This document shows, piece after piece, positions 3,699 to 17,685 of a stretch of 64,000 nucleotides of DNA. The position numbers and the translations under genes are program-made. The DNA comes from Chloroflexota bacterium (GTDB lineage Bacteria > Chloroflexota > Anaerolineae > Anaerolineales > UBA4823): contig JAJUJL010000004.1 in NCBI GenBank assembly GCA_029265355.1, positions 124,001-188,000 of the forward strand. Reading direction: 5' to 3'. Each line of letters begins with the position of its first letter. Position 1 is the stretch's first letter. The notes under the pieces were generated by a model. That model had not been told where the DNA came from. It worked only from the letters and a program-made list of their open reading frames with translations, and did no database searches.

Positions 3699-3734
3699 AA
3701 AAACGCAAAGCGCCCGCCGGTAACCGGCGGGCGC
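3699..3734 (-). terminator. Rho-independent terminator of the minus-strand catabolic operon
   Basis: A perfect 11-bp G+C stem (3710-3720 with 3724-3734, loop TAA) is followed on the minus strand by a U-rich run containing TTTGCG and TTTTT. It lies 26 bases past the DUF35 stop and would end the transcript that includes the thiolase-like gene. Confidence 0.85.
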
Positions 3735-3759
3735 CAGGGTTGCTCTCGCTATTCGCTGC

Positions 3760-4116
3760 TTATCCTGCCGGTTTGAGCACCAATCCGTACACCGCCTCCC
3801 CATACTGCTTGCGCACCGGCCCCCATTCGGGCTTCATCACCATACCGGTTTCCAGGTGAGCTGATTCGTCCACGTGGATCTGACCCATAGCGCGCACGCC
3901 GTTTTCGAACTCCACAACACCGATGGTCAGGTAACGCTGGTCGAACCCCCAGGGCAGGTTGTAGATGCGTGTGTAAGTGAGCAGCTTTGCCATCCCTTCT
4001 GGCTTGATCTTCTCGAACTCCCGGCTCTTGCAAGCCAGGCAGCGGTCATGGAAGGGGTAGTGAATCTTGCCACACTTCTTGCAGCGGTATGCGACGATCT
4101 CGATTTCTTTCTTCAT
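3760..4116 (-). CDS. DUF35 Zn-ribbon/OB-fold protein, partner of the thiolase-like protein
   Basis: A 118-residue protein with an N-terminal zinc ribbon (C12-x2-C15 and C26-x2-C29) followed by an OB-fold that contains the family segment GVVEFENG. Proteins of this type bind acyl-CoA and form complexes with thiolase-fold enzymes: the HMG-CoA synthase/thiolase complexes of archaea, and ChsH2 with the Ltp2 aldolase in steroid degraders. Its start overlaps the thiolase-like gene by 4 bases (ATGA), which strongly suggests a stoichiometric complex. It is the last gene before a strong terminator. Confidence 0.9.
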   Translation of the reverse strand: MKKEIEIVAYRCKKCGKIHYPFHDRCLACKSREFEKIKPEGMAKLLTYTRIYNLPWGFDQRYLTIGVVEFENGVRAMGQIHVDESAHLETGMVMKPEWGPVRKQYGEAVYGLVLKPAG

Positions 4117-5303
4117 TTCTCTACCCTCCGCAGCACGAAGGCCAGCACGTTGTTGCCAAACCCGCCGAAGTTGACCGTCAGGCCGTTCTGGGCGTTCTTC
4201 ACCTGGCGATTCTTGGGCAGCTCGTGACGCAACTGCCAGACAATATCCACCACCTGGGCCACGCCGGTAGCGCCCACGGGATGGCCGCGCGCCTTTAAAC
4301 CACCCGAAACATTGATCGGGATCTGCCCACCCAGGCGCGTTTTTCCAGCCAGGGCAGCCTTGGCGCCCTCGCCCTTCTTGAAGAAGCCCACGTGCTCGCT
4401 CTCGGCAATCTCCAGGATAGTGAAGGCGTCATGCAGCTCAGCCACATGAATGTCAGATGGCTTCAACCTGGCGCGCTCGAAAGCCTGTTGCGCTGCCAGC
4501 GTGACCGCTTTCAGGTCAGTGGGGTCCTCGCGCTCCTGCAGCGTTTGGGTATCGGTGGCCTGGCCAAAACCGGCAATGATCACCGGCGGTTTGGCAGGCG
4601 ACTTGAGCATCTCCAAGGGGCAGAGCACGATCGCCGCTGCGCCGTCGCTCACCGGGCAAGCGTCGTACAGGTGCAGCGGATCGGCTGCCACCGGATTATT
4701 GACGATGGCAGCCGGGTCATCGAAGATGCCCTCCTTGGTAATCGCCATCTCCACATGGGCATAGGGGTTCAGGCCGCCCATCTCCTGGTTTTTGATCGCC
4801 ACACTGACCAGCGCTTCACGCGTCACACCGTACTTTTCCATATACAGGCGGGTAAACATGCCTGCCATGCCAGGCAGGGTGATGCCGTAGGGATACTCAA
4901 CTTGAGGGTGGGTGAGCGTGGCCACGAAATCGGTGGCGCGCCAGCCGGTCACCTCGCGCATTTTCTCGCCGCCTACCACCAGCACGGTGTCGTAATAGCC
5001 AGAAGCCACCGCTAACAATCCGGCCTTAACCGCCGAGCCGCCTGAGGCGGGACCATTTTCCACCGTCTCAGCCGCGGCGGGCAGCAGGCTCAGGCGGTCC
5101 ACCAGGGAGCTGGCAATGGCTGTCTGGTGCTGGATCACACCGCCACCCATGTTGCCCACATAGACCGCATCCACCGATTTGTCGCCCAGCCCAGCGTCGT
5201 CCAGGGCTTTCAGGCTGGCGTACGCCAGCATATCCATCAGCGTGTCTTCGTCGCGCCGGCCGAAGGGGATCATGCCGACGCCGATCACTGCTACGTCTCT
5301 CAT
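4113..5303 (-). CDS. Thiolase-superfamily protein lacking the nucleophilic Cys
   Basis: A 396-residue protein of the SCP2-thiolase-like branch. Fold landmarks are clear: the N-terminal strand MRDVAVIGVG, the HDAF motif, and NVSGG followed by GHPVGATG with H341. At the position of the acylated cysteine, normally in a motif such as ENACASGG, this protein has ENGPASGG, so Pro85 replaces Cys. The base sequence leaves no doubt about this codon. The second thiolase Cys is also absent: the C-terminus reads NFGGFGNN. Ordinary thiolysis is therefore unlikely. Cys-less thiolase-fold proteins with a DUF35 partner include the Ltp2-type retro-aldolases of steroid side-chain degradation, so a C-C lyase on a CoA thioester is a reasonable model but is not proven. 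It is 4 bp from the GNAT-like gene and overlaps DUF35. Confidence 0.88.
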   Translation of the reverse strand: MRDVAVIGVGMIPFGRRDEDTLMDMLAYASLKALDDAGLGDKSVDAVYVGNMGGGVIQHQTAIASSLVDRLSLLPAAAETVENGPASGGSAVKAGLLAVASGYYDTVLVVGGEKMREVTGWRATDFVATLTHPQVEYPYGITLPGMAGMFTRLYMEKYGVTREALVSVAIKNQEMGGLNPYAHVEMAITKEGIFDDPAAIVNNPVAADPLHLYDACPVSDGAAAIVLCPLEMLKSPAKPPVIIAGFGQATDTQTLQEREDPTDLKAVTLAAQQAFERARLKPSDIHVAELHDAFTILEIAESEHVGFFKKGEGAKAALAGKTRLGGQIPINVSGGLKARGHPVGATGVAQVVDIVWQLRHELPKNRQVKNAQNGLTVNFGGFGNNVLAFVLRRVEK

Positions 5304-5307
5304 CGTC

Positions 5308-5997
5308 TCATCTCCCTTTTAGCCCGGCGATGCGCTCGCGGATGGTCTCATCGTCGGCAAACAGGATGGCACGCGTGGCCTGTTCCCAAAGGTCTTCCGG
5401 CACCGGGCGCTCTCCCACCACCAGGCGCGGCTTGGCTTTGAAATACGTCTCGCGCGTCAGCCGCCATGAATCGCCGCCGCCCAGCTCATGTGGAATATTG
5501 GTTTCTTCCAGCGGGTATTCGATCATCCAGCGCCGGAAGCCGATCGGGCTTTCGGCGACGATCAGCACCTCCTCCTGGTTGAGGTACTCCATGTGGTATT
5601 CCATCTTGGCAGCAAACAGGTGTGAGCCAATGCGCAGGCCGCGGTCGATCGCCAGCGTGTGATAGCTCATGCCCACCTTCTCGTTCTCCATGCGCCCGTT
5701 GACGACGCCCACGAGGTAGCCGTCCACCTGCCCAATCAGGCAGTACTCGCTCTTGACACGATAGCGGTACCAGGCCAGCAGCTCCCCATACAAGCGGGCG
5801 CTGACGATATCGTAGTAATCCCGCTCGATGAACAGGCAGGGGTGCACCGACTTGAGAATCTCAGGCACATCCTCACGCGCCGCCTGGCGCACTACCATCT
5901 TTTTGCCGTTCGCCAGGGTGATCACCTTGGGCGGGTAAGGCGCCATCGGGTATTGCTTAGGTCGCAATACTTGTTCCAGTTCCATATCCATTGGCAT
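5308..5997 (-). CDS. GNAT-like acetyltransferase-fold protein
   Basis: A 229-residue soluble protein. The segment KKMVVRQAAREDVPEIL near residue 35 looks like the first strand and helix of a GNAT fold. The stretch LIGQVDGYLVGVVNG, followed later by a HTLAIDRGLRIGSHLF segment, resembles the acetyl-CoA-binding strand-loop-helix, although the R/Q-x-x-G-x-G/A signature is only partly kept (RGLRIGSHL). The C-terminal 60 residues match nothing I know. It sits 4 bp from the thiolase-like gene in a tight operon, so it may act on or sense a CoA derivative of that pathway. Substrate unknown; the fold assignment is moderate. Confidence 0.6.
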   Translation of the reverse strand: MPMDMELEQVLRPKQYPMAPYPPKVITLANGKKMVVRQAAREDVPEILKSVHPCLFIERDYYDIVSARLYGELLAWYRYRVKSEYCLIGQVDGYLVGVVNGRMENEKVGMSYHTLAIDRGLRIGSHLFAAKMEYHMEYLNQEEVLIVAESPIGFRRWMIEYPLEETNIPHELGGGDSWRLTRETYFKAKPRLVVGERPVPEDLWEQATRAILFADDETIRERIAGLKGR

Positions 5998-6085
5998 AGC
6001 TGGTTTCCTCCAAACTATAGAGTTATCGGCGCGCCCCGGGCAGAGATGCGGCGGCGCTGCAGCCGCACCCTCCCCTGCGCACCTG

Positions 6086-6967
6086 TCAGGCCAGGTTTGC
6101 TTTGCTCAAAGCGTTGAGGCGCTCCACATGAGCCGGATCATAGGCATCCCCGAAACGCGTCTTGGGCAGGGCCGCCTTCTTTTCCATCAGCGCCTCGTAT
6201 TCATCGTCATCGACGATTGCCACGCAACGCCCGATGCTGGACTCGCCATCCACGAAGCGCCACGGGAAGAAGCCGATTGGCACCCGGCGGTTGAGCAACA
6301 GGTCGAGATCGCCGCCGATGCACTCGGCGTGCACAATGCCGTAGGGGAACATCTCCAGGTGCATGAGCTGGTACTTGGTGTCGTCGAAGAACTCGGCCAG
6401 CGGCATGCCATACTTCTTGCGAAACACCTTCTCCGCCTGGCGCGCCTGGCGCGGCATCCAATCGCGGATGATGGTGTTCATAGGGTGATCGGCGCTGCCG
6501 CAATCCACGCCGATCCAGCGCAGCTTCTTGGCTTTGGCCCACTCGGCAAACTCCCGGTCTGGGCCAGGGTGCATCACCATGTAGCGAATCTCGTTGGCGG
6601 TGGGCATATCCCAGCCAAAGTGGTGGTAACCGGTGTGGATGATGAGAATGTCGCCCTCGCGCACTTCGACGCGCTCCTCGACCATTTCACTGGTGTACAC
6701 ATCGTAATCGCCGCACACATCGCTCAGGTCGACCACGGCGGCGTCGTGCACCAGGTAGTCCATATCCAGCGAGGCCATATCCTTGCCGGGCGTGTGGAAA
6801 TGAATCTCGCCGTCCAGGTGCGTGCCCAGGTGATTGGAATGGGTAACAAGCTGTCCGTTAGCGCCGTTCGGCGCCAGGCGTTTGAAATACTTCACCTGCA
6901 GCGGCTCGTAGGTGGGCCAGGCGGGTGTGCCAATGCCCAGAGGGATGGTCAGATCGATGAATTTCAT
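6086..6967 (-). CDS. Cyclase-family metal-dependent hydrolase
   Basis: A 293-residue member of the cyclase family (PF04199), which includes kynurenine formamidase and isatin hydrolase. The metal-binding motif is present as HLGTHLDGEIHFH (residues 46-58), matching the family's HxGTHxDxPxH pattern except that Gly-Glu replaces the usual x-Pro. A further conserved stretch reads IHTGYH. The protein is longer than a typical kynurenine formamidase (about 210 residues). Family members hydrolyse amide bonds, often opening a lactam or imide ring; here a ring-opening step after molybdenum-dependent hydroxylation would fit. It lies between the thiolase block and the DUF1116/FdrA genes, all on the minus strand. 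Confidence 0.82.
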   Translation of the reverse strand: MKFIDLTIPLGIGTPAWPTYEPLQVKYFKRLAPNGANGQLVTHSNHLGTHLDGEIHFHTPGKDMASLDMDYLVHDAAVVDLSDVCGDYDVYTSEMVEERVEVREGDILIIHTGYHHFGWDMPTANEIRYMVMHPGPDREFAEWAKAKKLRWIGVDCGSADHPMNTIIRDWMPRQARQAEKVFRKKYGMPLAEFFDDTKYQLMHLEMFPYGIVHAECIGGDLDLLLNRRVPIGFFPWRFVDGESSIGRCVAIVDDDEYEALMEKKAALPKTRFGDAYDPAHVERLNALSKANLA

Positions 6968-6993
6968 GTTAGTCTCCTTTGTAAACCATATTT

Positions 6994-7013
6994 ACCGCAA
7001 AGGCGCAAAGTTT
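6994..7013 (+). repeat. Left inverted repeat flanking the GxxExxY remnant
   Basis: Twenty bases beginning ACCGCAAAGG and ending CGCAAAGTTT. They equal the reverse complement of the repeat at 7177-7205 with a 9-base segment (CACGAAGGA) missing. It abuts the 3' end of the gene remnant. Confidence 0.6.
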
Positions 7014-7015
7014 TT

Positions 7016-7175
7016 TCATTTCTTCCCTGCTGATTCGGGCAGATTGTTGACCATGCGTTTGATGCCGTGTTTGATAAGGTTGTTGTTCCAGTTGAGCAGA
7101 AAGCCCAGGCCCTAACGCTCTATGCACCTTCACCGCCACATCAACAACATATCTAGCAATTTCCTCGATATCCAT
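7016..7175 (-). pseudogene. Remnant of a GxxExxY (PDDEXK_3-type) protein gene
   Basis: The 5' part encodes an N-terminus typical of GxxExxY proteins, including VVDVAVKVHRALGPGL. After a frame change near 7100 the remaining bases encode that family's usual C-terminus in another frame: LLNWNNNLIKHGIKRMVNN and then a stop at 7016-7018. The whole middle of the roughly 125-residue protein, with the GxxExxY motif and the putative nuclease residues, is deleted. The remnant is bounded on both sides by matching inverted repeats. Family assignment is from memory of the conserved ends. Confidence 0.75.
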
Positions 7176-7176
7176 T

Positions 7177-7205
7177 AAACTTTGCGTCCTTCGTGCCTTT
7201 GCGGT
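7177..7205 (-). repeat. Right inverted repeat flanking the GxxExxY remnant
   Basis: Twenty-nine bases which on the minus strand begin ACCGCAAAGG, continue CACGAAGGA, and end CGCAAAGTTT. The left copy at 6994-7013 is identical apart from the 9 missing bases. This copy directly precedes the remnant's start codon. Confidence 0.6.
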
Positions 7206-7209
7206 TAGC

Positions 7210-8613
7210 TTATTGATTCTTCAATACTTCAAATGCATCTTCGAAGCACCGCGCCGGGGCGCGCAGGATGCCCGCGCCGACCATGCCGATGCCCGGCTGC
7301 TTATGGGCGATGCCGGTGTTGATCTGCGGCAGGATGCCGGTTTCCATCACCTTGCGCACATCGATGCCGCAGGGCGTGCCGCGGAAGTTGAGCGCCGGTA
7401 TGGTGAATTGCTCGTGCTCATCGTGGGTGATCTCGTACATCTCCAGCGTGGTCTTCAGCGCCAGTTGCGGCGTGCCGCCGACGAACTTGGTGATCGCCGG
7501 AGCGGCAGCCATTGCCATGCCGCCGTAGCCGGAGGTTTCGGTCACCGTGCTGTCGCCGATGTCGGGATTGGCGTCAGCCTCGGTAAACTGTGGGAAGTAC
7601 AGGCCCTGCACTTTGCCGGCGGGGGCGGTGAACCAGCGCTCTGGCATGCTGGATAAACGGATGCCGAAATCGGTACCGTTGCGCGCCATGACGGTGACGA
7701 TGGTACTGCCAGGGATGCCCTCTGCTGGCTCCAGCATGGCTTTGCCAGCCGGCATGCTCAGGTTCAGGAAGAAATGATCGTTGCGGTCAATGAACTCGAT
7801 CACCTGCGCCAGGACTTCGTTATCTCGGCTGGTGCGCGCCAGCGCTGGACCGATCGCCCGCAGGAAGAGCGAGGTTGCGGCGCGGTTGCGGTTGTGACAT
7901 TCATCCCCCATGTGCAGCGCCTGGGCGATCATGCTGCGCAGGTCGATGCCATCTGGCAAGCTTTGCAAAGCCCGGTCGAGCGCCGGGTAGAGCGTGGTTT
8001 CCATCCACTTCAGGCGGGCGTAGACTTCGGGTCCCATACCGCCATAACGCAACACTTTGCCCAGCCCCTCGTTCTGTGTGCAGAAGGCGCGGTTGCCAAA
8101 GGCCTTGTTTTCGATGATGAACACCGGCATGGAGGGCGAAACGACACCCGCCATGGGTCCAACGGCGTGATGGTGGTGGCAGGGCGAATACTCGATGGCG
8201 GACGAGGCAGCCAGTTTGGCGGCATCTGCTTCGTCCTTCGCCAGGCCTTCGTAGATCAGAGCGCCCATCACCGCGCCGCGCGTTGGTCCGCACATGCGCT
8301 CCCAACTCACTGGCGGGCCGGCGTGCAGAATCATGCGCTCGTGCATACCTGGAATGACATCCCTGGCAATACCCATGCTCACCAACACAGGTCGCCCTTG
8401 CTTGATGCGCCGGCAAGTTTCGTCGTTTGCCGCTTCGATGTCCACGCCGCTGCGAGTAACACGTAAGCGCGGTACGCTCTCCGCCGGCGGGCGCCAATCC
8501 ACGTCGATCACGGGGGTGCCCTGGGCTTCCACAGACTGCGCCATGCTGCTCAGGCCGACATTGATCACGCTCAACGGTTTACCGAACAGGTTGTTGATCG
8601 TTGTTTCGCTCAT
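7210..8613 (-). CDS. DUF1116 protein (YlbE/AllG-like), putative carbamoyltransferase subunit
   Basis: A 467-residue DUF1116 protein, similar in length and character to E. coli YlbE. It includes the conserved His-rich stretch SPCHHHHAVGPMAG and the segment GGMGPEVYARL. The start at 8613 (MSETTI) is chosen because GCAGGAG lies about 7 bases upstream; the frame stays open much further, but that region is the coding part of fdrA in another frame. In E. coli, FdrA, YlbE and YlbF (also called AllF, AllG, AllH) are reported to form the oxamate carbamoyltransferase of anaerobic allantoin breakdown. Here the gene starts 14 bp after fdrA stops, so the two are cotranslated. No carbamate kinase gene is seen. 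Confidence 0.88.
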   Translation of the reverse strand: MSETTINNLFGKPLSVINVGLSSMAQSVEAQGTPVIDVDWRPPAESVPRLRVTRSGVDIEAANDETCRRIKQGRPVLVSMGIARDVIPGMHERMILHAGPPVSWERMCGPTRGAVMGALIYEGLAKDEADAAKLAASSAIEYSPCHHHHAVGPMAGVVSPSMPVFIIENKAFGNRAFCTQNEGLGKVLRYGGMGPEVYARLKWMETTLYPALDRALQSLPDGIDLRSMIAQALHMGDECHNRNRAATSLFLRAIGPALARTSRDNEVLAQVIEFIDRNDHFFLNLSMPAGKAMLEPAEGIPGSTIVTVMARNGTDFGIRLSSMPERWFTAPAGKVQGLYFPQFTEADANPDIGDSTVTETSGYGGMAMAAAPAITKFVGGTPQLALKTTLEMYEITHDEHEQFTIPALNFRGTPCGIDVRKVMETGILPQINTGIAHKQPGIGMVGAGILRAPARCFEDAFEVLKNQ

Positions 8614-8627
8614 CGGATACTCCTGCC

Positions 8628-10181
8628 CTACACCGGCGCGACCAGCCGCGCCGCCAGCCGCGCCGCAGCAGCATTGCTGGCGCACAGCACCATACCAGCC
8701 TCCTGCAAAGCCTGCGCCTGGCGGCTCAATCGCTGTGGATCGTCCTCGGTGCCTGTGATCGAACCTACCATCAGCAATTTTCTCCCCTGGGCGTGCGCCA
8801 ATGCCTGCGCCTTGCGGATCGCTGGCCCCAGCTCGGAGGCAGGGTCTGGGTGGGCGCCGTAACCCAACACCACATCCAGCATGATGACAGCGGTTTGTGG
8901 ATCGTTCGCCTCTTGCAGCAACCGCCGGATGCGCAGATCGTTGTCGATCATCGGATGCAACCGCCCAACGGTAAACTCTTCTTCCCCCAGGTCGACGGCG
9001 CTGTGTCCCTGAGAACGGTTCGAGTCGGGCAACTGCTGCTGGGCGCTGAGCGGCGCATTGGAGAAGACTGGCTCGGGCAGCAGGTCTTTCCACAGCACCT
9101 GGGCCTCATAGCACAACGTGCCGCCAGAGAACAGACCGCGCAGATAGCGCTGCTGCGGCTGCAAACCGGCCCTCAAACCAGCCAGCGCCTCACCCGACAG
9201 GGCAGTCTCTGCAGTCGCCAGCATCGCCTCCCCGCGCTGGGCCAGGCCGGCTGCCTTCATGGCGGCCTCCTCGAGCGTTCTGGCAGGGTGAATATGGGCG
9301 GGCATTGTCGGCCGGTCTTCGAAGTTCTCTCCCAACAGGCACAGCACAGTGGGCTTCTTGCTTTGAGCGGCTTGTTCCAGCACCCCATAAGCCACTGCCG
9401 GCGCTGGCGGCTTGCTCACCAGCACGATCACTTGCGTCTCCGGATCGCTTTGCAACGCTTGCAATCCAGCCAGCATCATAGCGCCGCCCACTTCCTCTTT
9501 TAGGTCACGCCCGCCTGTACCAATGCCCTGGGTGACACCCACGCCCGCTTTCGCCAGCAGCGTGGAGACCTCCTGCAAACCCGTACCTGCCGCGGACACA
9601 ATGCCCACCGGACCAGCAGGTATCACATTGGCAAAGCCCAACGCCACGCCGTTCAAGATGGCAGTACCGGCGCCGGGTCCCATCAGCAGCAAACCGCGTT
9701 GGCGAGCGTACTTTTTCAGGGCGATCTCATCCTCGAGCGAGACGTTGTCGCTGAAGAGCAGCACATGCAGCCCGTGGCGCAGCGCCTCCCAGGCTTCCTC
9801 GGCGGCGTATCGCCCGGCAACCGAGATGACGGCCACGTTGGCGGCAGGATTCTGCTTCACGGCAGCGCGCAGCGTTTTGGGCCGAAACTGCCCAGCCTCC
9901 TCCTGCACCTGCTTCTTTTGCAGCAACTTCTGGGCCTCGCCAAGGGCCTGGTCGAGCGCCGGTGCCTCAGCGCTGACCGCGATCACCAGGTCGTTGGCAG
10001 AAGCAGCCTCAGCTTCTGTGGTTAGCAGCCCGGCTTCCCTGAGCAGGCCTTTATTGGCTTCGGTGCCCATCACCACCGCTACATCCTTCACGCCTGGCAA
10101 GCGGCTCAATTCCTGGGCAACTACCATCAGCGAGACCGAGTCATGGTACTCGCTGGGCTTGATCAATGTTTTAATCGCCAA
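8628..10181 (-). CDS. fdrA: FdrA, acyl-CoA synthetase-like carbamoyltransferase subunit
   Basis: A 517-residue FdrA homologue with a succinyl-CoA-ligase-like architecture. The N-terminus reads KPSEYHDSVSLM, the family's usual beginning, and glycine-rich CoA-ligase-like loops follow (GPVGIVSAAGTGLQE, IGTGGRDLKEEVGG). The start is taken as TTG at 10181 because AAGGAGG sits 5-6 bases before it, and earlier codons overlap the dehydrogenase gene. E. coli FdrA is slightly longer (about 555 residues). It is encoded between the molybdenum hydroxylase and DUF1116 genes; with DUF1116 and the DUF2877 protein at 16822-17685 it would complete an AllFGH-type complex transferring a carbamoyl group to phosphate. 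Confidence 0.92.
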   Translation of the reverse strand: MAIKTLIKPSEYHDSVSLMVVAQELSRLPGVKDVAVVMGTEANKGLLREAGLLTTEAEAASANDLVIAVSAEAPALDQALGEAQKLLQKKQVQEEAGQFRPKTLRAAVKQNPAANVAVISVAGRYAAEEAWEALRHGLHVLLFSDNVSLEDEIALKKYARQRGLLLMGPGAGTAILNGVALGFANVIPAGPVGIVSAAGTGLQEVSTLLAKAGVGVTQGIGTGGRDLKEEVGGAMMLAGLQALQSDPETQVIVLVSKPPAPAVAYGVLEQAAQSKKPTVLCLLGENFEDRPTMPAHIHPARTLEEAAMKAAGLAQRGEAMLATAETALSGEALAGLRAGLQPQQRYLRGLFSGGTLCYEAQVLWKDLLPEPVFSNAPLSAQQQLPDSNRSQGHSAVDLGEEEFTVGRLHPMIDNDLRIRRLLQEANDPQTAVIMLDVVLGYGAHPDPASELGPAIRKAQALAHAQGRKLLMVGSITGTEDDPQRLSRQAQALQEAGMVLCASNAAAARLAARLVAPV

Positions 10182-10191
10182 AATCGCCTCC

Positions 10192-12552
10192 TTACTCCTC
10201 GACCAAGCCGGCCTCCAGCATCGCCAGGTACACCTTCTCGGAAGTGTAAGGCGGCGCGCCGACGCGAATGCCGATCGCATCATAGATGGCGTTGGCAATG
10301 GCTGGGATGGTGGGCACCATGGCGTGCTCGCCGATGCCGCGCGCTCCCCACGGGCCGTCATCCTGCGCCACTTCAACAATGATCGTCTCGATATCAGGGG
10401 GCACATCGGTGCTGGTGGCAATGCGATAATCAACGAAGCTGGGGTTTTGCAATACGCCCTCTTTGAGCTGCAAGCTCTCGAACAGGGCTGTGCTCAGTCC
10501 CTGCACAAAGCCGCCTTCCATCTGCGCCCGCACCATTTCGGGGTTGATGGCTTTGCCAACATCAAAAGCCGCCACGCCGCGCAGCACACGCACCCGGCCG
10601 GTATCCATATCCACTTCGACCTCCACCGCTTGGGCTCCGGTGGTGTAATGCACCACGGCGCGCGGGCCCTGCCCTGTTTCCGCATCCAGACCGGTGACAT
10701 AGGTGGGCATAAAACTGCCCCGCCCCAGAACCGGGCCTCCTACCCAGCCCTGGTCATTCGGCAGCGGGATACCATAGATGACAATATTTTTCAGCGAAAT
10801 GGCCTCCTCAGATTTATAGGAGATAACCTTGCCATCGATGATGTCCAGGTCTTCGATGTTTTCGTTCCAGGCTTTGGCCACCATCTCCAGGATCTGGCGG
10901 CGCGCGTCGCGGGCGGCGGCGGTGATGGCGTTACCCATGCTCCAGGTCAGGCGGCTGGCAACCGTCTGCCATTCGTATGGGCTGTAGTTGGTATCCAACG
11001 GTGTTGCCACCCGCACCCAATCGATCGGCACACCCAGGGCCGCGGCGGCCATTTGGGCGGCGATGGTGAACGAGCCCTGCCCGATCTCTTGCCCACCCAC
11101 GCTCACCGTCACTGTGCCGTCTTCGTTGAGCGCTACCTTGGCGCTCGAACCGGCATTGGGTGGCATAGCCGGCGCCTTCCACATCAGGGCAATGCCTTTG
11201 CCGCGCCGTTTATTGGGCGCACTGGGCGGCTCCTTGCGACCCCAGCCAATGGCCTCGGCAGCCCTGGTCAGGCATTCTGATAGCCCGGTGGCGTGCATGG
11301 TCATGCCGGTGACCAACGTGTCGCCGGTCTTAATGCAGTTGATCTTGCGGAACTGCACCGGATCCATGTGCACAGCTAAAGCCAGCTCATCGATGCACTG
11401 CTCCAAACCGGCGTGCATTTCCGGCATACCGAAGCCGCGCATCGGGCCACCTACCGGGTGATTGGTGTAAACGCAGTAGCTGTCGGTTTTCACGTTGGGC
11501 ACATTGTACGGTCCGCTGCTGCTGTAACCAGCGGCGCGGGTGATATTGACACCATACTCGGTGTACGCCCCGCCATCCCAGTAGAAGCGGTTTTCCATCG
11601 CCAGCAAACGCCCCTGGGCGTCGCAGCCCATCTTGAAATACGCCACCAGGCCCTGGCGCACGAAAGCGGTGTAGAACTCTTCTTCGCGCGTCAGGCGCAA
11701 CTTGACCGGGCGTCCCTTGACTTTCATGGCGATGGCGACCGCCAGCGCCTCCATGCTCACCCCCGCCTTGCAGCCAAAACCGCCGCCGACGTACGGCGCG
11801 ATCACCTGCACATCGGATTGCGAAAGACCCAGCGACTTGGCGATCAGGTTGCGCTGGGCAAACGGAGACTGCGAGCTGCCCCACAGCCTGACTTTGCCAT
11901 TTTCATCTACCCGGGCGGTGGCAACGTGGGGTTCGATGGGCACGTGTTGCACGTGTGGGATGCGATATTTGCGCTCGACGATGGCCGCGCACTGCGCCCA
12001 AGCAGCATCGACATCGCCCTTGCGGATACGAAAATGGTTGGAGATGTTGGTGCCAGGCTCAGGAAAGATAAAGTTTGCCACCTCGTATTGACCCAGGTCG
12101 GGGTGCAGCAAGGGCGCTTCGGGGCTGGCGCCATACTCGGGGTCGAACACGCCAGGCAGCGGCTCATATTCCACTTCGATCAGCTCCACCGCCTGCTCAG
12201 CGATCTCCTCGCTGACCGCGGCCACGCCGGCAACGGGGTCGCCGACATAGCGCACCCGGTCGCGGCAAAAGATGAAGCGATCTTGCAAATACAGGCCAAT
12301 ATGCCCGGCGTAATCCTCTCCAGTCACCACGGCTTTAACACCCGGCAGGGCGCGCGCCTTGCTGGTGTCGATGCGCTTGATCAGGGCATGGGGTAAGTGG
12401 CTGCGTTTGATGCGCGCATACAATAAGCCAGCGCCAAACTGCAGGTCGTCGGCAAACATCGCCGAGCCGACCACCTTTTCGCGGGCGTCGACGCGCCGCA
12501 CGCTGTCGCCGATCGGGTGAGGGGCGGATGTCGCTTCAATTTGACTTGTCAT
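10192..12552 (-). CDS. Molybdenum hydroxylase large subunit (xanthine dehydrogenase family)
   Basis: A 786-residue molybdopterin-binding subunit. It opens with the family's IGDSVRRVDAREKVVGSAMFADD segment, contains the cofactor-binding YVGGGFGCKAG and GQEIGQGSF loops, and ends with ARGIGEHAMVP, which carries the catalytic Glu next to the molybdenum. The start at 12552 (MTSQIE) has GGAGGG five bases upstream. It hydroxylates a heterocycle or aldehyde carbon using water, passing electrons to the Fe-S and FAD subunits encoded just upstream. The specificity residues cannot be assigned with confidence, so xanthine is only one candidate. The neighbouring nucleobase permease favours a purine-like or other N-heterocycle. 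Confidence 0.93.
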   Translation of the reverse strand: MTSQIEATSAPHPIGDSVRRVDAREKVVGSAMFADDLQFGAGLLYARIKRSHLPHALIKRIDTSKARALPGVKAVVTGEDYAGHIGLYLQDRFIFCRDRVRYVGDPVAGVAAVSEEIAEQAVELIEVEYEPLPGVFDPEYGASPEAPLLHPDLGQYEVANFIFPEPGTNISNHFRIRKGDVDAAWAQCAAIVERKYRIPHVQHVPIEPHVATARVDENGKVRLWGSSQSPFAQRNLIAKSLGLSQSDVQVIAPYVGGGFGCKAGVSMEALAVAIAMKVKGRPVKLRLTREEEFYTAFVRQGLVAYFKMGCDAQGRLLAMENRFYWDGGAYTEYGVNITRAAGYSSSGPYNVPNVKTDSYCVYTNHPVGGPMRGFGMPEMHAGLEQCIDELALAVHMDPVQFRKINCIKTGDTLVTGMTMHATGLSECLTRAAEAIGWGRKEPPSAPNKRRGKGIALMWKAPAMPPNAGSSAKVALNEDGTVTVSVGGQEIGQGSFTIAAQMAAAALGVPIDWVRVATPLDTNYSPYEWQTVASRLTWSMGNAITAAARDARRQILEMVAKAWNENIEDLDIIDGKVISYKSEEAISLKNIVIYGIPLPNDQGWVGGPVLGRGSFMPTYVTGLDAETGQGPRAVVHYTTGAQAVEVEVDMDTGRVRVLRGVAAFDVGKAINPEMVRAQMEGGFVQGLSTALFESLQLKEGVLQNPSFVDYRIATSTDVPPDIETIIVEVAQDDGPWGARGIGEHAMVPTIPAIANAIYDAIGIRVGAPPYTSEKVYLAMLEAGLVEE

Positions 12553-12594
12553 GGTTCCCTCCACATATTGGATCAAGAGAGCCTGCCGGCGGTC

Positions 12595-13083
12595 TCACAA
12601 GCGCGCCGCCAGGCTCTCTTGTCGGGCGGCTGCATCCTGGATAGCATCCACGATGCGCAGATAACCCGTACAGCGGCACAGGTTGCCCACCAGCGCTTCG
12701 CTGATTTCGTCCGGGGTTGGGTGTGGATTGCGATTGATCAGGGCGCGCGCCGAGATGAGCACGCCAGGTGTGCAGAAGCCGCACTGTACACCGCCGTGAT
12801 CGATGATGGCTTGCTGGACAGGATCGAGCACGCCATCTTGCGCCAGGCCTTCCACGGTGACGATCTCAGCGCCCTGGCATTCAACTGCCAGGATCATGCA
12901 GGAGTTGACCGGTTCGCCATTCAACAGCACCGTGCACGCCCCGCACTCGCCGGCATTGCAGCCATTCTTCGTGCCGGTAAAGGCCAGCTTATCGCGCAGC
13001 ATCTGCAGCAGGGTCATTTGGGAAGGAACATCCACTTGCTCGTATTCACCGTTAATCTTCAGGGTAATGCGATGATTCGCCAT
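12595..13083 (-). CDS. Molybdenum hydroxylase 2Fe-2S subunit
   Basis: A 162-residue iron-sulfur subunit. The plant-type ferredoxin cluster is ligated by C42, C47, C50 and C62 ([10 protein letters not shown] and a later NSC). The second cluster is ligated by C101, C104, C136 and C138 (CGFCTPG and LCRCTGY). The start at 13083 (MANHR) has GAGGTGG upstream. It relays electrons between the molybdenum subunit and the FAD subunit. Order and spacing (FAD, Fe-S, Mo on the minus strand) are those of a CoxMSL/XdhBCA-type operon. Confidence 0.95.
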
Positions 13084-13129
13084 TTTCCACCTCAGTTGTT
13101 GTGGCGGCGGCTTGCCAGCCGCCATGACT

Positions 13130-14026
13130 TTAATTCCCTAATTTCTTCCAGGTCATTTGCAAAGCTTTTTCGGTCAGGGTTCGCACCATGGCTTTGCGGT
13201 AGCGAGCGCTGCCGCGCACATCATCGATCGGGCTGCAGGCGGCCTGCGCCAGGCGGGCAGCCTGTCGGAAGGCTTCAGCGTTGATCGGGTGAGAGGCCAG
13301 GTGCTCTTCGAGCGCCGGCACCAGCAGCGGCGTCGGCGCCACGGAAGCCAGCGCCGCCTGGAAACGATAGCCGGAAGCCCGCCCTGCATCAGCGTAACCA
13401 TAGACCGTTACCCCAACGATGGACAGGTCGCTCCAGGTGTTGCGCCCCAGTTTAATATACACGCCGGCTGCCCCGGCTGGAGCAGGAGGAAACTCGATTG
13501 AGGTGACGATGTCGCCGGGCTGCAGCACGGTCTTACCAGGGCCGCGGAAAAAGGTTGCCAGCGGCTCCTGCCGGTAACCGCCCACGCCGTGCACATTCAA
13601 CACCCCCCCCAGCACCAGGCAAGCGCCGATGGTATCGCCAGCCGGCGAAGCATTGCAGATATTTCCAACAATAGTGGCGCGGGTGCGAAGCTGGTATGAA
13701 GCCACCGAGCGGCAGGCTTCCGCCAGCAACGCATAGTGCGCCTGCACCATTGGGGAGGCCATCACCCGGTTCATATTGACGCCCGCGCCCAGCTTCAAGC
13801 CACGCTGCGGGTCGTAGGACAACTCGTCAGTGCTATCCAGATGTTTGACATCCACCAGGTACTTATCGTGATAAAAACCGTCCCGCATGCGCACGAAGAT
13901 ATCGGTGCCGCCCAGCAGGGGACGCGCCTCGCCGGCATGCTCGGCCAGGAAACGGCTCGCCTCCATCAACGTAGCAGGACGGACATAATCAAACTCAGGG
14001 AGTTCTGGGTGGGCATTTATGCTCAT
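13130..14026 (-). CDS. Molybdenum hydroxylase FAD-binding subunit
   Basis: A 298-residue flavin subunit of the CO dehydrogenase/xanthine dehydrogenase medium-chain family. FAD contacts are recognisable in RPLLGGTDIFVRM (near residues 36-48) and in TIVGNICNASPAGDT (near 117-131). The N-terminus FDYVRPATLMEASRFL is typical. It receives electrons from the 2Fe-2S subunit and passes them to NAD or another acceptor. Its gene lies 46 bp before the Fe-S subunit gene. The 78-bp gap between it and the permease gene upstream contains an imperfect inverted repeat of CAACGTTC-type sequence. Confidence 0.93.
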   Translation of the reverse strand: MSINAHPELPEFDYVRPATLMEASRFLAEHAGEARPLLGGTDIFVRMRDGFYHDKYLVDVKHLDSTDELSYDPQRGLKLGAGVNMNRVMASPMVQAHYALLAEACRSVASYQLRTRATIVGNICNASPAGDTIGACLVLGGVLNVHGVGGYRQEPLATFFRGPGKTVLQPGDIVTSIEFPPAPAGAAGVYIKLGRNTWSDLSIVGVTVYGYADAGRASGYRFQAALASVAPTPLLVPALEEHLASHPINAEAFRQAARLAQAACSPIDDVRGSARYRKAMVRTLTEKALQMTWKKLGN

Positions 14027-14104
14027 CTTCCATACCTCGATTTCCAGAGATGTTGGAACGTTGAATGTTGACCATTCAACGTTCCAACAATCATCGGTGA
14101 ACGA

Positions 14105-15493
14105 TTACAGGTTGATGTTCTCGCGATCTTCCACGCCGAACATCTTAGGCGGCAGGAACAGGAAGATCAAGTTGACCAGGATACCCAGCAAGGCCGAGAA
14201 AACGATGGCGGGGATGCCGCTCGGGAACAACACCGGGATGGGGAAGGGGAACAAGCCGTCCTTCAATCCCAGGTTGCCGCCAATGCCAGCGATCAGGATA
14301 ATAGCGCCCACTGCGAGCTGGCGCGGCTCGAACAGGTTGACCTTCTCCGATTGGATCAGCGCAATACCTTGCATGCCGATCACACCAAACAGGTAGATCG
14401 AGAGCCCGCCCGTCACTGCCACCGGCAGGGTATTGACCACGGCGGCCAGCTTGCCCACAAAGCCGAGCAGGATTGCAATCACACCGGCGGTCATCAACAC
14501 CGGCACGGAGTAGCAGCGCGTGATCGCCATCAGGCTGTTGTTCTCGCCATAGTTGGTGCCTGCGCAACCGCCCAGGAAGCCAACCACCAGGTCATCGCTG
14601 CCATCCGCCACCAGGTTCAGGCCAATCAGGCGCTTGATCTCCAACGGGGCGCGGCCCAGGTCTTTGGCGAGCTGGTCGATGTACAGGCTCATCTGGTACA
14701 GGTGGGCGGTGCTCTCCGGAATGGTGGCGATGGCGATCAAGGCGATGCCAGTGACCGCCGCCCAGGCGTTCGGGTCGCCAAAGGCTGGGAGGGTGAATTG
14801 GGGCATCTGGAGCCACTTGGCGTCAGCAATGATCTGGTAGTTCATCATGCTGGGGAAGAAAATCGCCGACACAATGTAACCAAATATGGCGCCGAGCAAG
14901 ATCGGCAGCATGCCAATCAAGCCCTTCCCTTGCAGATAGACAGAAAATGCGATGGTGACAACTAATGTGATAAATGCCACGGTCCAGTTGGCGCTGGCCA
15001 TGTTCAATGCGGCGCCTGCCAGGGCGATACCGATCACGATGGCCACGCTGCCCGTGATGACTGGCGGTAGAATCCTGTCCAACGCCTCTTTGCCAATGCG
15101 CATGATCAACAAGCCAACCAGGATTTCGACGATGGCCGTCCCCATGATGCCGACCTGCACGATCCTCACCCCCTCCGGGCAATAGAAGGTAGCCGGGTCG
15201 CTGAAGCAGTCATTGGCATACAGCGACATGGTGGTCACAACCACCGTGATGTAGCTGAAGCTGGAACCGTAGTAGAGCGGGATGCGCCGCCCGGAGACGA
15301 GCAGCGCTACAATGGTGCCGATGCCGCTGGCGGTCAATGTGACGCCAACATCGAACTTGGTCAGGATGGCCACCAGCACCGTCGCGGGGAACATAGTCAG
15401 CACTTGCTGGAAGCCCAGGCTGATCATTGCGCCCCAGGGAGGTGCATCCTGGGGCAGGTAGCCCAAAATTTTGGTTTGCGTAGATGCGCTCAT
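14105..15493 (-). CDS. NCS2-family nucleobase permease
   Basis: A 462-residue integral membrane protein with about 12-14 hydrophobic segments and the NCS2 (uracil/xanthine permease) character. The N-terminus PPWGAMISLGFQQVLTMFPATVLV corresponds to TM1, and later come GCAGTNYGENNSLMAITRC (the TM10 region that binds the nucleobase) and GLSIYLFGVIGMQG. The start is taken at 15493 (MSASTQ); GAGGAGA is 11-12 bases upstream, so a GTG three codons earlier is also possible. It probably imports the substrate of the molybdenum hydroxylase encoded downstream. It heads the minus-strand catabolic operon. Confidence 0.92.
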   Translation of the reverse strand: MSASTQTKILGYLPQDAPPWGAMISLGFQQVLTMFPATVLVAILTKFDVGVTLTASGIGTIVALLVSGRRIPLYYGSSFSYITVVVTTMSLYANDCFSDPATFYCPEGVRIVQVGIMGTAIVEILVGLLIMRIGKEALDRILPPVITGSVAIVIGIALAGAALNMASANWTVAFITLVVTIAFSVYLQGKGLIGMLPILLGAIFGYIVSAIFFPSMMNYQIIADAKWLQMPQFTLPAFGDPNAWAAVTGIALIAIATIPESTAHLYQMSLYIDQLAKDLGRAPLEIKRLIGLNLVADGSDDLVVGFLGGCAGTNYGENNSLMAITRCYSVPVLMTAGVIAILLGFVGKLAAVVNTLPVAVTGGLSIYLFGVIGMQGIALIQSEKVNLFEPRQLAVGAIILIAGIGGNLGLKDGLFPFPIPVLFPSGIPAIVFSALLGILVNLIFLFLPPKMFGVEDRENINL

Positions 15494-15923
15494 CGGGATC
15501 ACATTCTCCTCAGATTGGGTGAACACAGGATGAAACTCAAGTGCCAATGGGAGTGGGTTGACTATTTCGCGATAGCGGCACCTCCTCTCCCCCACTGCCG
15601 ATTCGTGGATGGTACACGGATTCTTCTGTTGTCAGAGGCAGGGGAAATTGACTGGCAAGCTCTGTCAGGGAAGGGAGGCGATGAGATGAACGTGGATGAT
15701 GTCGAATCCTGGCAGATCATCACTCAACGGCCTTCGGGATAAGAAAGAGATCGAACCGAATGATCTCTTACCTGTTTGAATAAACACTATTCGATTGATA
15801 AAGATGCCCGTATAATTAAGCTCGCCAAGTGTTGCAAATGATCAGGCTGTTTTCAACCTCGAAGACAACTGACGCATAGTATTAGTGTAGCATGACTTTT
15901 CGCACAGGGCAAACACAAGCAGG
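15494..15923. other. Divergent intergenic region between the two catabolic operons
   Basis: About 430 bases separate the permease gene from the divergent operon. A possible 70-codon plus-strand frame (ATG at 15530, stop at 15742, MKLKCQWEWVDYF) has only a weak ribosome site and no recognisable family; it may be spurious. A TATAAT lies at 15811-15816 without a good -35 element at the right distance. The region probably carries promoters for both directions, but no clear operator was seen. Confidence 0.4.
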
Positions 15924-16265
15924 ATGAGCATAGATACCGGCCTGGCTGTTGTCATCATCGCCGTATTGATCTTTTATCTGCGATTGATCACCCTGCAGCG
16001 CGAACGCGCTAAACGCCTGGCCCAGGCGCCTTTATCAGCCAACCAGCAAACCAAAAAACAAAAGTCGTCTGCGCATCTCCAGCAACGCTATTCTATCCTG
16101 AGCACCCGGCGCTCCGACCTGGCGATCGCCGCTTTGGGGATTGTCGCCATCCTGGCGGGTATCCTGTTGTATATGAGCGTGTTGCCGCTCTCACCCATCC
16201 AACCCTATTGGTGGCTGCCGACTGCCGCTGGCATCGTCGCCTTCAGTTGGGCATTCAAACTATGA
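15924..16265 (+). CDS. Small membrane protein, first gene of the DUF2877 operon
   Basis: A 113-residue protein of no family I recognise. It has an N-terminal transmembrane helix (about residues 6-22), a basic linker with repeated Arg, Lys and Gln to about residue 55, and two further hydrophobic stretches ending in PTAAGIVAFSWAFKL. The topology would place the basic segment in the cytoplasm. Its stop overlaps the next start by 4 bases (ATGA), so the three genes 15924-17685 form one translationally coupled operon. A role in the neighbouring catabolic pathway is only suggested by position. Confidence 0.6.
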   Translation: MSIDTGLAVVIIAVLIFYLRLITLQRERAKRLAQAPLSANQQTKKQKSSAHLQQRYSILSTRRSDLAIAALGIVAILAGILLYMSVLPLSPIQPYWWLPTAAGIVAFSWAFKL

Positions 16266-16825
16266 ATGCTGCACGCACCGCAATCTGCCCGGTTTGCGGC
16301 GAGAGCGAGGCCGTTGAGAAGGTCAGCGTCTTGTACCTGACCGGGCTGGGGATGCGCAATCGCTCTGATTCGCGGCTGGATGGCGAGACAGGGTCGCTGC
16401 TGGTGAACAATCACCCCGGTTTTCGGGCTGCTCTCCCGACGCTGAGCCGCAAGCTGGCGCCGCCGTCCTCGCCCAGGCAGTTTTTCATGCGGCCAGTGCA
16501 CCCAGATACAGCGGTGCTGGCTTTCAGCCTGATTACACCATTTTTTCTGTACGGCATCTGGAGCACGCAATTGCACACACTGCCGGCGGCGATCACCCTG
16601 CTGGCAATTTTCTACCTCGTGTATTTGCTACGTCGCAAAACGCTGGTGGCGCGCTTCCAGGCAGAGCTGGCCAGGCAAAAAGCCGAAACCGAGCGCATTC
16701 AGCACGGCATCGAACGCTGGATGAATCTGTATTACTGCGCCCGGGATGATGGCGTCTTCGAGCCAGGAACCAGCGAACTGGTGCCGGTGGATCTGCTGAG
16801 AAGCCACCTGCTAAAGGAAAGATGA
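16262..16825 (+). CDS. Membrane protein with N-terminal CxxC, unknown function
   Basis: A 187-residue protein. The N-terminus contains CPVCG, half of a possible zinc ribbon with no second CxxC following. The middle has two hydrophobic helices (around LAFSLITPFFLYGIW and the following AAITLLAIFYLVYLL), and the C-terminal part is charged and probably helical (FQAELARQKAETERIQHG). The start at 16262 is set by the 4-base overlap with the upstream gene; its own stop overlaps the DUF2877 start in the same way. I do not recognise the family. Confidence 0.6.
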   Translation: MNAARTAICPVCGESEAVEKVSVLYLTGLGMRNRSDSRLDGETGSLLVNNHPGFRAALPTLSRKLAPPSSPRQFFMRPVHPDTAVLAFSLITPFFLYGIWSTQLHTLPAAITLLAIFYLVYLLRRKTLVARFQAELARQKAETERIQHGIERWMNLYYCARDDGVFEPGTSELVPVDLLRSHLLKER

Positions 16826-17685
16826 TCGCCCGCACGGTTGGCGCTGCCGCCCGGCGGCTGCTGAAAGAGGCCCAAACCGCTGTGCTGGTGGGACACACCT
16901 CGCGCGGCGCATTCCTGGCGCTGGATTCGGGAGAGCCGGTGTTTCTCTCGCTGGAGGGCTATCGCGGCCCGCTGACAGTGAATGTGGCCGGCCCGGCGCA
17001 ACCGCTGAGAGGGCTTCCTGTGCAGGCGCCAGCCCGCCTTCATGCCCAGGAGATTATTTTCGAACAACATGGCATCAGCATCCAAACCGCTGGCGCGGAA
17101 ACCTGGCTGGCCCCGCCGCGCCCGGAAAACCCACTTTCGCAAAGGGTGCGCCGCGTGTTTGGAGAAGAAGTGCTCCAGCAGGCAGTGCAACATGGAGAAG
17201 CGGAAGGTATGCTCGCCGCAGTTGCCACCCTCCTGGGTCTGGAGGCTGCTGTTGAAAGGCGCCCGCTGCCCACCAGCCTGCTGGCGGTCCGTGATTATTT
17301 GAGGCAACGCCAACTCGAACGGGCGGCAGCAGCCATCCAACCGCTGTTGGGCTATGGGCGCGGGCTAACCCCCGCCGGCGACGACCTGGCGCTGGGATTG
17401 CTGTTGGCGCTTGGTCGCTGGGGAGATGTGTTGGCGCCGGATCTGGAGGTGCAGGCGCTGGAGCGGCTGGTGCTGCCCGCTGCTGCCTGGCGCACCACCG
17501 CGCTCTCCACCAGCCTGATCGCCTGCGCTGCCCAGGGCCAGGCAGATGAACGCCTGCTCGCCGCGCTGGATGGGCTGCTGTGCGGCGGCGTCACAGCGGA
17601 GAGGCTGGTCGCAGGAGTGTCCAAATGGGGGAACACTTCCGGGCTGCAGGCGCTGGCGGGCATGCTGTTGGTGGTTGTCCCTTAA
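16822..17685 (+). CDS. DUF2877 protein (YlbF/AllH-like), putative carbamoyltransferase subunit
   Basis: A 287-residue DUF2877 protein. The diagnostic segment is GYGRGLTPAGDDLALG (around residues 175-190), followed by the conserved WRTTALSTSLIACAAQG. In E. coli the equivalent gene ylbF lies with fdrA and ylbE, and the three products are reported to act together in oxamate carbamoyl transfer. Here it is encoded apart from them, on the opposite strand, beyond the hydroxylase and permease genes, yet inside the same locus. It is the third gene of a coupled operon with two small membrane proteins. Confidence 0.85.
   Translation: MIARTVGAAARRLLKEAQTAVLVGHTSRGAFLALDSGEPVFLSLEGYRGPLTVNVAGPAQPLRGLPVQAPARLHAQEIIFEQHGISIQTAGAETWLAPPRPENPLSQRVRRVFGEEVLQQAVQHGEAEGMLAAVATLLGLEAAVERRPLPTSLLAVRDYLRQRQLERAAAAIQPLLGYGRGLTPAGDDLALGLLLALGRWGDVLAPDLEVQALERLVLPAAAWRTTALSTSLIACAAQGQADERLLAALDGLLCGGVTAERLVAGVSKWGNTSGLQALAGMLLVVVP

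Follow-up and report, generated by a model that had tools for sequence, protein, structure and literature searches.

Which compound may be degraded by a bacterial gene cluster in which homologs of the carbamoyl-transferring AllFGH proteins stand beside a molybdenum (Mo) hydroxylase and an NCS2 permease? The question is raised by positions 3760 to 17685 of a stretch of 64,000 nucleotides (referred to here as the window) from a Chloroflexota bacterium (assembly GCA_029265355.1, contig JAJUJL010000004.1, positions 124,001 to 188,000), which also encode a PF04199 cyclase, a GNAT-like protein and a thiolase-DUF35 pair. A preliminary description of this DNA had outlined import, hydroxylation, ring opening, carbon chain cleavage and carbamoyl transfer on an unidentified substrate. 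We narrow that substrate, most probably, to a pyrimidine, on the basis of a UraA-like permease and of malonate-type and cytosine-deaminase-family enzymes in related loci, and consider it moderately probable that the core of the cluster, from permease to AllFGH, carries out oxidative, phosphorolytic pyrimidine degradation. Import, Mo-dependent hydroxylation, ring opening and carbamoyl transfer are retained from the earlier outline, while the proposed carbon chain cleavage is replaced by the putative decarboxylation of a malonyl-type thioester, as opposed to thiolysis. In what follows, gene content, families, motifs, conservation and mutual exclusion are given as found in the loci read, and substrates and reactions as our proposals.

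The window is part of contig C31, one of the 64 contigs of a 5.05 Mb genome that is 98.45% complete. All gene families named above were recovered where the preliminary description had placed them, by Pfam and NCBIfam scans or, for the GNAT fold, by a structural model. Ten genes form a minus-strand run from the NCS2 permease (14105-15493) to the DUF35 protein (3760-4116), with intergenic gaps of -4 to 88 bp, except for 242 bp between AllG and the cyclase. The divergent operon in which DUF2877 had been noted together with two membrane proteins is the plus-strand trio mem1-mem2-AllH (15924-17685), opposite this run. Coordinates of the minus-strand genes are given with chosen start codons, and score pairs throughout as bits/curated cut-off.

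In a sample of 301 genomes of the phylum, AllG was found in 57 and a cyclase relative (E <= 1e-30) in 63; the GNAT-like protein was found in six, all of which also encode AllG; in five of these the two genes lie a few kb apart on one contig. From 67 AllG matches listed, we read 40 loci of 3.8-19.9 kb each, those left out being mostly near duplicates and short contigs. AllF is present in 40 of 40, the cyclase in 20, the Mo subunit in 20, and cyclase and Mo subunit together in 18, a clustering that the preliminary description had suggested looking for among relatives. As the whole block recurs in the same order, including the divergent mem1-mem2-AllH trio, in locus L057 of genome G168, it is not a chance arrangement. 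A second set comprises 80 cyclase loci, the best 80 of 583 confirmed stretches from a scan of named genomes with the cyclase alignment, and thus describes the neighborhood of the window cyclase, not its full distribution. These loci contain GNAT (41), AllH (35), the Mo subunit (35), AllG (32), AllF (30), the thiolase (24), DUF35 (22) and NCS2 (16); AllF/AllG or a subunit of the xanthine dehydrogenase (XDH) family is present in 55 of the 80, and both in 20. By title, nearly all belong to Chloroflexota/Anaerolineae; a few are labeled just 'bacterium' and one 'Burkholderiales', and the cultured Bellilinea caldifistulae accounts for one. Genes were counted with a simple open reading frame (ORF) picker, BLAST and families built by single linkage, and many of the loci are short metagenome contigs; where a family occurs only in relatives, library scores were obtained for one or two of its members.

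The permease (Pfam PF00860) has its best solved relatives among UraA structures, with E values from 3.7e-41 to 3.5e-40; the relationship to uric acid-xanthine permease is weaker (E 5.2e-10 to 3.6e-9). Its PESTAH and YGEN motifs align with AEHVGH and YGEN of UraA, and the two glutamates and the histidine that we take to be binding-site residues of UraA are kept; purine permeases carry QN. Across 24 related permeases, PESTAH is found in 21 of the 22 whose sequence extends over it, YGEN is found in 22 of 23, and even the exception, a 31% relative in L070, has kept Glu, His and Glu. The hydroxylase consists of a molybdopterin-binding large subunit (10192-12552; PF02738, PF20256, PF01315), a 2Fe-2S subunit (12595-13083; PF01799/PF00111) and a FAD subunit (13130-14026; PF00941/PF03450), a three-subunit domain make-up shared with XdhABC and 4-hydroxybenzoyl-CoA reductase. 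Among NCBIfam models, XdhA ranks first for the Mo subunit and XdhB for the FAD subunit, and XdhC ranks second for the 2Fe-2S subunit. However, unlike XdhABC-type hydroxylases, the window enzyme is under the cut-offs of the listed models (for the Mo subunit, all 13 NCBIfam models listed) and has no named substrate class; since its three subunits score 548.3/780, 175/310 and 183.9/217, we rejected canonical XDH. In the proposed pathway, the UraA-like permease would import uracil and/or thymine, either of which fits, and the Mo hydroxylase would add oxygen at C6, beside the ring nitrogen (N1), to give barbiturate or 5-methylbarbiturate.

The cyclase (6086-6967; PF04199, 106/23.1 bits), a predicted metal hydrolase, would then open the ring of barbiturate hydrolytically, yielding ureidomalonate (N-carbamoyl-malonamate). 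It contains the metal motif HxxTHxDxxxH, whose residues H46, T49, H50, D52 and H56 are kept at >= 90% in 15 rows of the alignment, one row being gapped there. The protein does not match the barbiturase/cyanuric acid hydrolase family PF09663, and a Pfam scan at E 0.001 returned PF04199 only. A search for AtzD-family (classical barbiturase) genes in the same genome found none, but as its control matched in no genome, it does not establish absence. Variants of the cyclase occur among relatives: seven loci encode tandem two-domain fusions of 554-575 aa (L046, at 10480-12201, L063, L067, L076, L078, L079 and L083), and the metal motif is altered in the N-terminal copy of the L046 fusion, Asp being replaced by Val and the last His by Phe. 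L053 and L056 carry two separate adjacent copies, and L131 has a 510-aa ORF with no Pfam match on the coding strand between AllG and the cyclase (8334-9866).

AllF (FdrA; 8628-10181, with a TTG start behind AAGGAGG; NCBIfam PRK06091, 487.9/433, scored on 8628-10169), AllG (DUF1116; 7210-8613; PF06545, 328.4/27, scored on 7210-8592) and AllH (DUF2877; 16822-17685, plus strand; PF11392, 66.1/25) are all over their curated cut-offs. According to the accessible part of the E. coli study, AllFGH there converts oxalurate by phosphorolysis to oxamate and carbamoyl phosphate (PMC11326118). Because ureidomalonate is an N-acylurea like oxalurate, one CH2 longer, it may be the AllFGH substrate here, and its phosphorolysis would yield malonamate and carbamoyl phosphate. 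The window thus shares with E. coli the three subunit families and, as proposed, the phosphorolysis of an N-acylurea, but differs in the putative substrate and in the absence of a single allFGHK operon: AllH is divergent, with the two membrane proteins, and carbamate kinase is encoded on contig C29 (379.4/358.25). The preliminary description had seen no carbamate kinase, which holds for the window contig, where none of the genome's seven amino-acid-kinase family matches lies (of the seven, L001 matched no NCBIfam model and L003, whose sequence did not yield a translation, stayed unclassified), but not for the genome. This kinase would use the carbamoyl phosphate to form ATP, with release of ammonia and CO2. 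The carbamate kinase family is found in eight of the 40 AllG loci, the scored member being over its cut-off, and occurs together with cyclase and XDH in four (L051, L053, L056 and L081). No allantoin-pathway families were found in Pfam and NCBIfam scans of the run. In nitrifying ammonia oxidizers AllFGH likewise stands outside an allantoin operon, with AllFGHK beside biuret/triuret genes, and the part of that report available names no Mo hydroxylase, cyclase or thiolase pair in these clusters (PMC12625717). Behind AllF-AllG, L069 (7705-9543) and L073 (4924-7167) encode members of a protein family that is matched best, though far below cut-off, by the NCBIfam model for caprolactamase beta (178.9/1000 for the L069 member), perhaps another ring opener used with AllFG.

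What would become of malonamate is suggested by enzymes that recur in relatives and are absent from the run in the window. Five of the 40 AllG loci contain an amidase, best matched among solved structures by malonamidase E2, and three an AMP-forming ligase (closest among solved structures to malonyl-CoA synthetase and its chimeras; best NCBIfam model PRK07514, 554.4/558); family III CoA transferases and nitrilase-family amidases are also present, and BMP-type ABC importers recur, as do XdhC and CoxG. In 18 of the 80 cyclase loci we found a sodium-pump decarboxylase set, biotin carrier included (MmdA-like carboxyltransferase 744.9/998.8, beta 389.1/190.6, gamma 34.4/36.05 bits), and in ten a deaminase family for which cytosine deaminase is the best NCBIfam model. 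Permease, hydroxylase, cyclase, AllF, AllG, AllH, amidase and ligase stand together in L064, L072 and L075, the decarboxylase set in other loci. Malonamidase E2 hydrolyses malonamate, and as malonamate would be the product of the phosphorolysis, the genes of these three loci, from permease to ligase, would form one line. We read the additional enzymes as handling a (methyl)malonyl unit, ammonia and carbamoyl phosphate, with pyrimidine bases as the input: in relatives, malonamate would be deamidated by a malonamidase- or nitrilase-type amidase, activated by malonyl-CoA synthetase or a CoA transferase and, in some, decarboxylated by the sodium-pumping biotin enzyme, and thymine would lead by the same route to methylmalonyl-CoA. 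In L064 (4925-5794) and L075 (2081-2950), a 5'-3' exonuclease-family protein (L075 member scored) is encoded between the malonyl-CoA-synthetase-like ligase and AllH.

In the window itself, the genes downstream of the cyclase encode other proteins. The GNAT-like protein (5308-5997, 229 aa) is an orphan with no Pfam or NCBIfam match; its AF2 model, from 23 sequences, has a pLDDT of 88.1, and VIA-align confirmed the GNAT fold (Z 14.7, rmsd 2.9, 165 aligned). The rows of the fold search returned only this fold, none of them pointing to a substrate, and the CoA loop, judged by what we take to be the canonical motif, is partly canonical, with R119, G120 and G124 invariant in 23 rows. The thiolase-fold protein (4113-5303; PF22691/PF00108) lacks catalytic cysteines, as had been noted previously: judged by motifs that we assume to be the canonical ones, the nucleophile position is occupied by Pro85 and that of a second Cys by HDAF, and GHP is kept. 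Pro85 and HDAF are present in 18 of 18 aligned thiolases (of 26 close relatives including that of the window), and His291 and His341 are invariant in the same 18; the nearest solved structures are 7YVY, 4YZO and 6ESQ. Decarboxylating ketosynthases have lost their nucleophile (Cys to Gln) and kept two histidines, and by this likeness a role of the thiolase as a decarboxylase would be chemically reasonable. Its gene is overlapped by that of the DUF35/ChsH2-type zinc-ribbon and OB-fold protein (3760-4116; PF12172 30.8/23.2, PF01796 27.8/27.1 bits), which is present in 22 of 24 thiolase loci. A thiolase fold with an adjacent DUF35 gene is also seen in BbsAB, archaeal thiolase/HMG-CoA synthase, Ltp2-ChsH2 and Sal-Shy, from which the window protein differs in having neither catalytic Cys. 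As far as the available text of a report on such pairs goes, they perform thiolysis, retro-aldol cleavage or acylation (PMC12329534). We rejected a true (thiolytic or condensing) thiolase because both cysteines are gone, and an Ltp2/Sal-type aldolase because the His of HDAF stands where the DUF35-bound aldolases described there carry Tyr (YDHF, YDCY).

The distribution of these genes suggests what they replace. Thiolase (24 loci) and decarboxylase set (18 loci) never occur together in the 80 cyclase loci (Fisher p 0.0009, or 0.018 when restricted to the 46 loci that extend >= 3 kb on both sides), nor do GNAT (41) and nitrilase/CoA transferase (11; p 0.00016), all of these values ignoring kinship. 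On the cyclase tree, a quick FastTree with 24 of 78 inner branches starred, the two exclusivity states change >= 5 and >= 6 times. The clearest case is the interval between cyclase and NCS2, which holds GNAT-THIOL-DUF35 in L119 and CoA transferase-amidase in L132. From this pattern we infer that GNAT replaces amidase plus activation, and thiolase-DUF35 the decarboxylase. The Na+-translocating methylmalonyl-CoA/malonate decarboxylase of sister loci would catalyze the same chemical step but belongs to a family unrelated to thiolase, and occurs in none of the 24 thiolase loci. GNAT as a substitute for the Na+-pump decarboxylase was rejected, both being present together in 11 of the 80 loci, and since four thiolase loci (L091, L092, L103 and L107) have no GNAT gene, GNAT and thiolase are not strictly coupled. 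We tentatively propose that, in the window, the GNAT protein would work backwards, exchanging ammonia for CoA on malonamate, and that the Cys-less thiolase and DUF35 would decarboxylate (methyl)malonyl-CoA to acetyl- or propionyl-CoA.

Haloarchaea provide a comparison. In seven haloarchaeal cyclase regions, all from plasmid records, the XDH trio stands beside the cyclase in five and not in two, and no AllF or AllG was listed within 12 kb in their gene tables, which are incomplete. In Halostagnicola larsenii, a cytosine deaminase (459.1/438) and the cytosine permease CodB are encoded next to the cyclase and the XDH set. Halorussus vallis has an OB-fold-thiolase pair near cyclase and XDH, the thiolase, 41% identical, having Ser at the nucleophile position and HDAF kept; in Natrinema zhouii, a thiolase is annotated at the edge of the stretch. 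These regions support the pyrimidine assignment and a role of the thiolase pair, despite the presence of two permease motif types, YGEN and SQN.

Of 17 plasmid records with a cyclase relative, eight were opened, the seven haloarchaeal ones among them, and of 192 with AllG, two. With 96 Escherichia, 18 Citrobacter and 17 Klebsiella records among the 192, relatives of AllG are frequent on plasmids of enterobacteria. On plasmid pSR8 of Aminobacter sp. SR38 (L197, 10442-22861), AllF-AllG stand beside a cyanuric acid amidohydrolase (550.6/360), carbamate kinase, an amidohydrolase, a BMP importer and AllH, a neighborhood from which AllFGH may also function in s-triazine breakdown. On Rhodococcus ruber plasmid pmega_2 (L194/L198), the genes for the cyclase relative and a nitrilase are neighbors, and two Rieske oxygenase-reductase pairs, a formate dehydrogenase and two DUF1116 proteins are encoded nearby; that this region is a route for substituted uracils is speculation.

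Several observations weigh against the pyrimidine pathway. The permease is below the uracil permease cut-off (PRK10720, 217.5/477 bits), and the best solved relative of the Mo subunit is 4-hydroxybenzoyl-CoA reductase. The Mo subunits near these cyclases are of two types, about 59-85% and 29-33% identical to that of the window (one is 41% identical), and the oxidized substrate may therefore vary. Two Chloroflexota deaminases scored under the cytosine deaminase cut-off (260/438 and 243.5/438); for one of them solved structures were searched, with AtzC as the nearest, followed by CodA. Only one of the seven haloarchaeal regions has a cytosine deaminase, while a permease of purine type (SQN) accompanies the YGEN one in several. 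Amidase, CoA ligase, cytosine deaminase and carbamate kinase are all missing from the run in the window. Furthermore, in 25 of the 80 cyclase loci the sequence available shows no AllF/AllG and no XDH subunit, eight of these (L086, L087, L099, L135, L137, L146, L149 and L156) having >= 8 kb on both sides; in Bellilinea, whose locus L086 contains cyclase, GNAT and AllH, the one AllG is on contig C23, outside the 20.9 kb around the L086 cyclase. A lineage-corrected sign test of the two exclusivities, underpowered by its small number of independent pairs, gave median p values of 1 and 0.25. Finally, the genome of the window encodes two dihydropyrimidinases over cut-off, which leave room for a reductive or hydantoin route; in favor of the oxidative one, no PreA-type dihydropyrimidine dehydrogenase was found over cut-off (60.9/335). 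Both dihydropyrimidinases are in a nucleobase cluster on contig C29 (46600-81100, L182-L184), together with 8-oxoguanine deaminase, adenine deaminase, the carbamate kinase and BMP/ABC importers. As the assembly is in 64 contigs, absences from the genome are provisional.

Other explanations have to be set beside this one. The core could be as proposed, with GNAT, thiolase and DUF35 forming a merely adjacent pathway, such as the C-C cleavage of another acyl-CoA. The reactions of known DUF35-thiolase pairs would fit this, and in 38 of the 80 cyclase loci the sequence available shows no thiolase and no decarboxylase; yet GNAT-THIOL-DUF35 lie within the run next to the cyclase, CoA transferase-amidase takes their place in L132 as compared with L119, and a thiolase-OB-fold pair with HDAF is again near cyclase and XDH in Halorussus vallis. 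We consider this explanation, which overlaps the core of our own, unlikely. So, too, is purine catabolism, with the Mo enzyme as xanthine dehydrogenase and xanthine or urate converted by an unknown route to oxalurate for the classical AllFGH step: the ranking of the Xdh models and the known action of AllFGH on oxalurate agree with it, whereas the hydroxylase scores under all three curated XDH cut-offs, the UraA-like permease, the malonyl-type enzymes of relatives and the location of the purine deaminases in the separate C29 cluster do not.

AllFGH would also act on its proven substrate if a hydantoin- or imidazolone-type compound were converted by the Mo enzyme to parabanate and by the cyclase to oxalurate, and dihydropyrimidinase/hydantoinase homologs are present in the genome. 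This route leaves the malonamidase-, malonyl-CoA-synthetase- and methylmalonyl-CoA-decarboxylase-like enzymes of relatives, and their cytosine-deaminase family, without explanation, and we regard it as improbable. Least probable is s-triazine catabolism, in which the cyclase would open a cyanurate-like ring and AllFGH would strip carbamoyl groups from biuret-type products. The Aminobacter plasmid, the biuret/triuret genes beside nitrifier AllFGHK and the similarity of the relatives' deaminases to AtzC are consistent with this idea, but it has no use for the Mo hydroxylase and the malonyl-type enzymes; that no AtzD-family gene was found is a weak counterargument, given its control.

The pathway from pyrimidine to malonyl-type thioester that we favor can be compared with the oxidative pathway of actinobacteria, which consists of uracil dehydrogenase, barbiturase and ureidomalonase. 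Barbiturate and ureidomalonate would be intermediates common to both; in contrast, the proposed ring opener is a PF04199 cyclase and not an AtzD/TrzD-family barbiturase, phosphorolysis would take the place of hydrolysis to urea, and the carbon would be handled at the level of malonyl-CoA. An oxidative pyrimidine route as such is known, as the available part of one report indicates (PMC12507026). Among the papers listed in searches on AllFGH, barbiturase, pyrimidine degradation and DUF35-thiolase pairs, with subscription journals mostly uncovered, none presents the cluster in its title or summary.

Of the remaining features, mem1 (15924-16265, plus strand), a small membrane protein, and mem2 (16208-16825, plus strand), a membrane protein whose true start may lie further in, are ORFs for which no role was found; they have counterparts of 33% and 37% identity, respectively, in L057. 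Among the 80 cyclase loci, mem1 matches occur in L089, L120 and L124, and mem2 matches in L089, L120, L135 and L146. Directly behind the DUF35 gene is a terminator-like hairpin (3709-3735, minus strand) of 12 pairs, 11 of them G-C, with a T-rich tail; it is a consensus match only, the scan having returned 17 terminator-like sites as compared to 11.8 +/- 3.8 in shuffles. The block is flanked on one side by genes for an ABC ATPase, a class V aminotransferase and lipoyl synthase, and on the other by genes for an NBR1-type Ig-like protein and an S9 peptidase, none of which was found again beside the conserved block in L057.

Taken as a whole, the reading is a chain of new assignments, and that all of its links hold is doubtful: Chloroflexota, and in part haloarchaea, would possess an oxygen-independent, energy-conserving pyrimidine catabolism in which each step after import is carried out by a newly assigned enzyme, namely an XDH-family uracil/thymine hydroxylase, a PF04199 barbiturase, AllFGH as a 'ureidomalonate phosphorylase', a GNAT protein working backwards, and a two-His, Cys-less thiolase-DUF35 decarboxylase exchangeable for a sodium-pumping one. 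Necromass, a commonly assumed food source of Anaerolineae, is rich in pyrimidines. If the reading is true, genes could be assigned to oxidative pyrimidine degradation in a major phylum whose members are mostly uncultured, and two enzymes of an unusual kind would be predicted, namely a CoA-acylating GNAT and a decarboxylase with a thiolase fold. AllFGH, with oxalurate as its one proven substrate, would then represent a class of carbamoyltransferases that act on N-acylureas and supply ATP synthesis.

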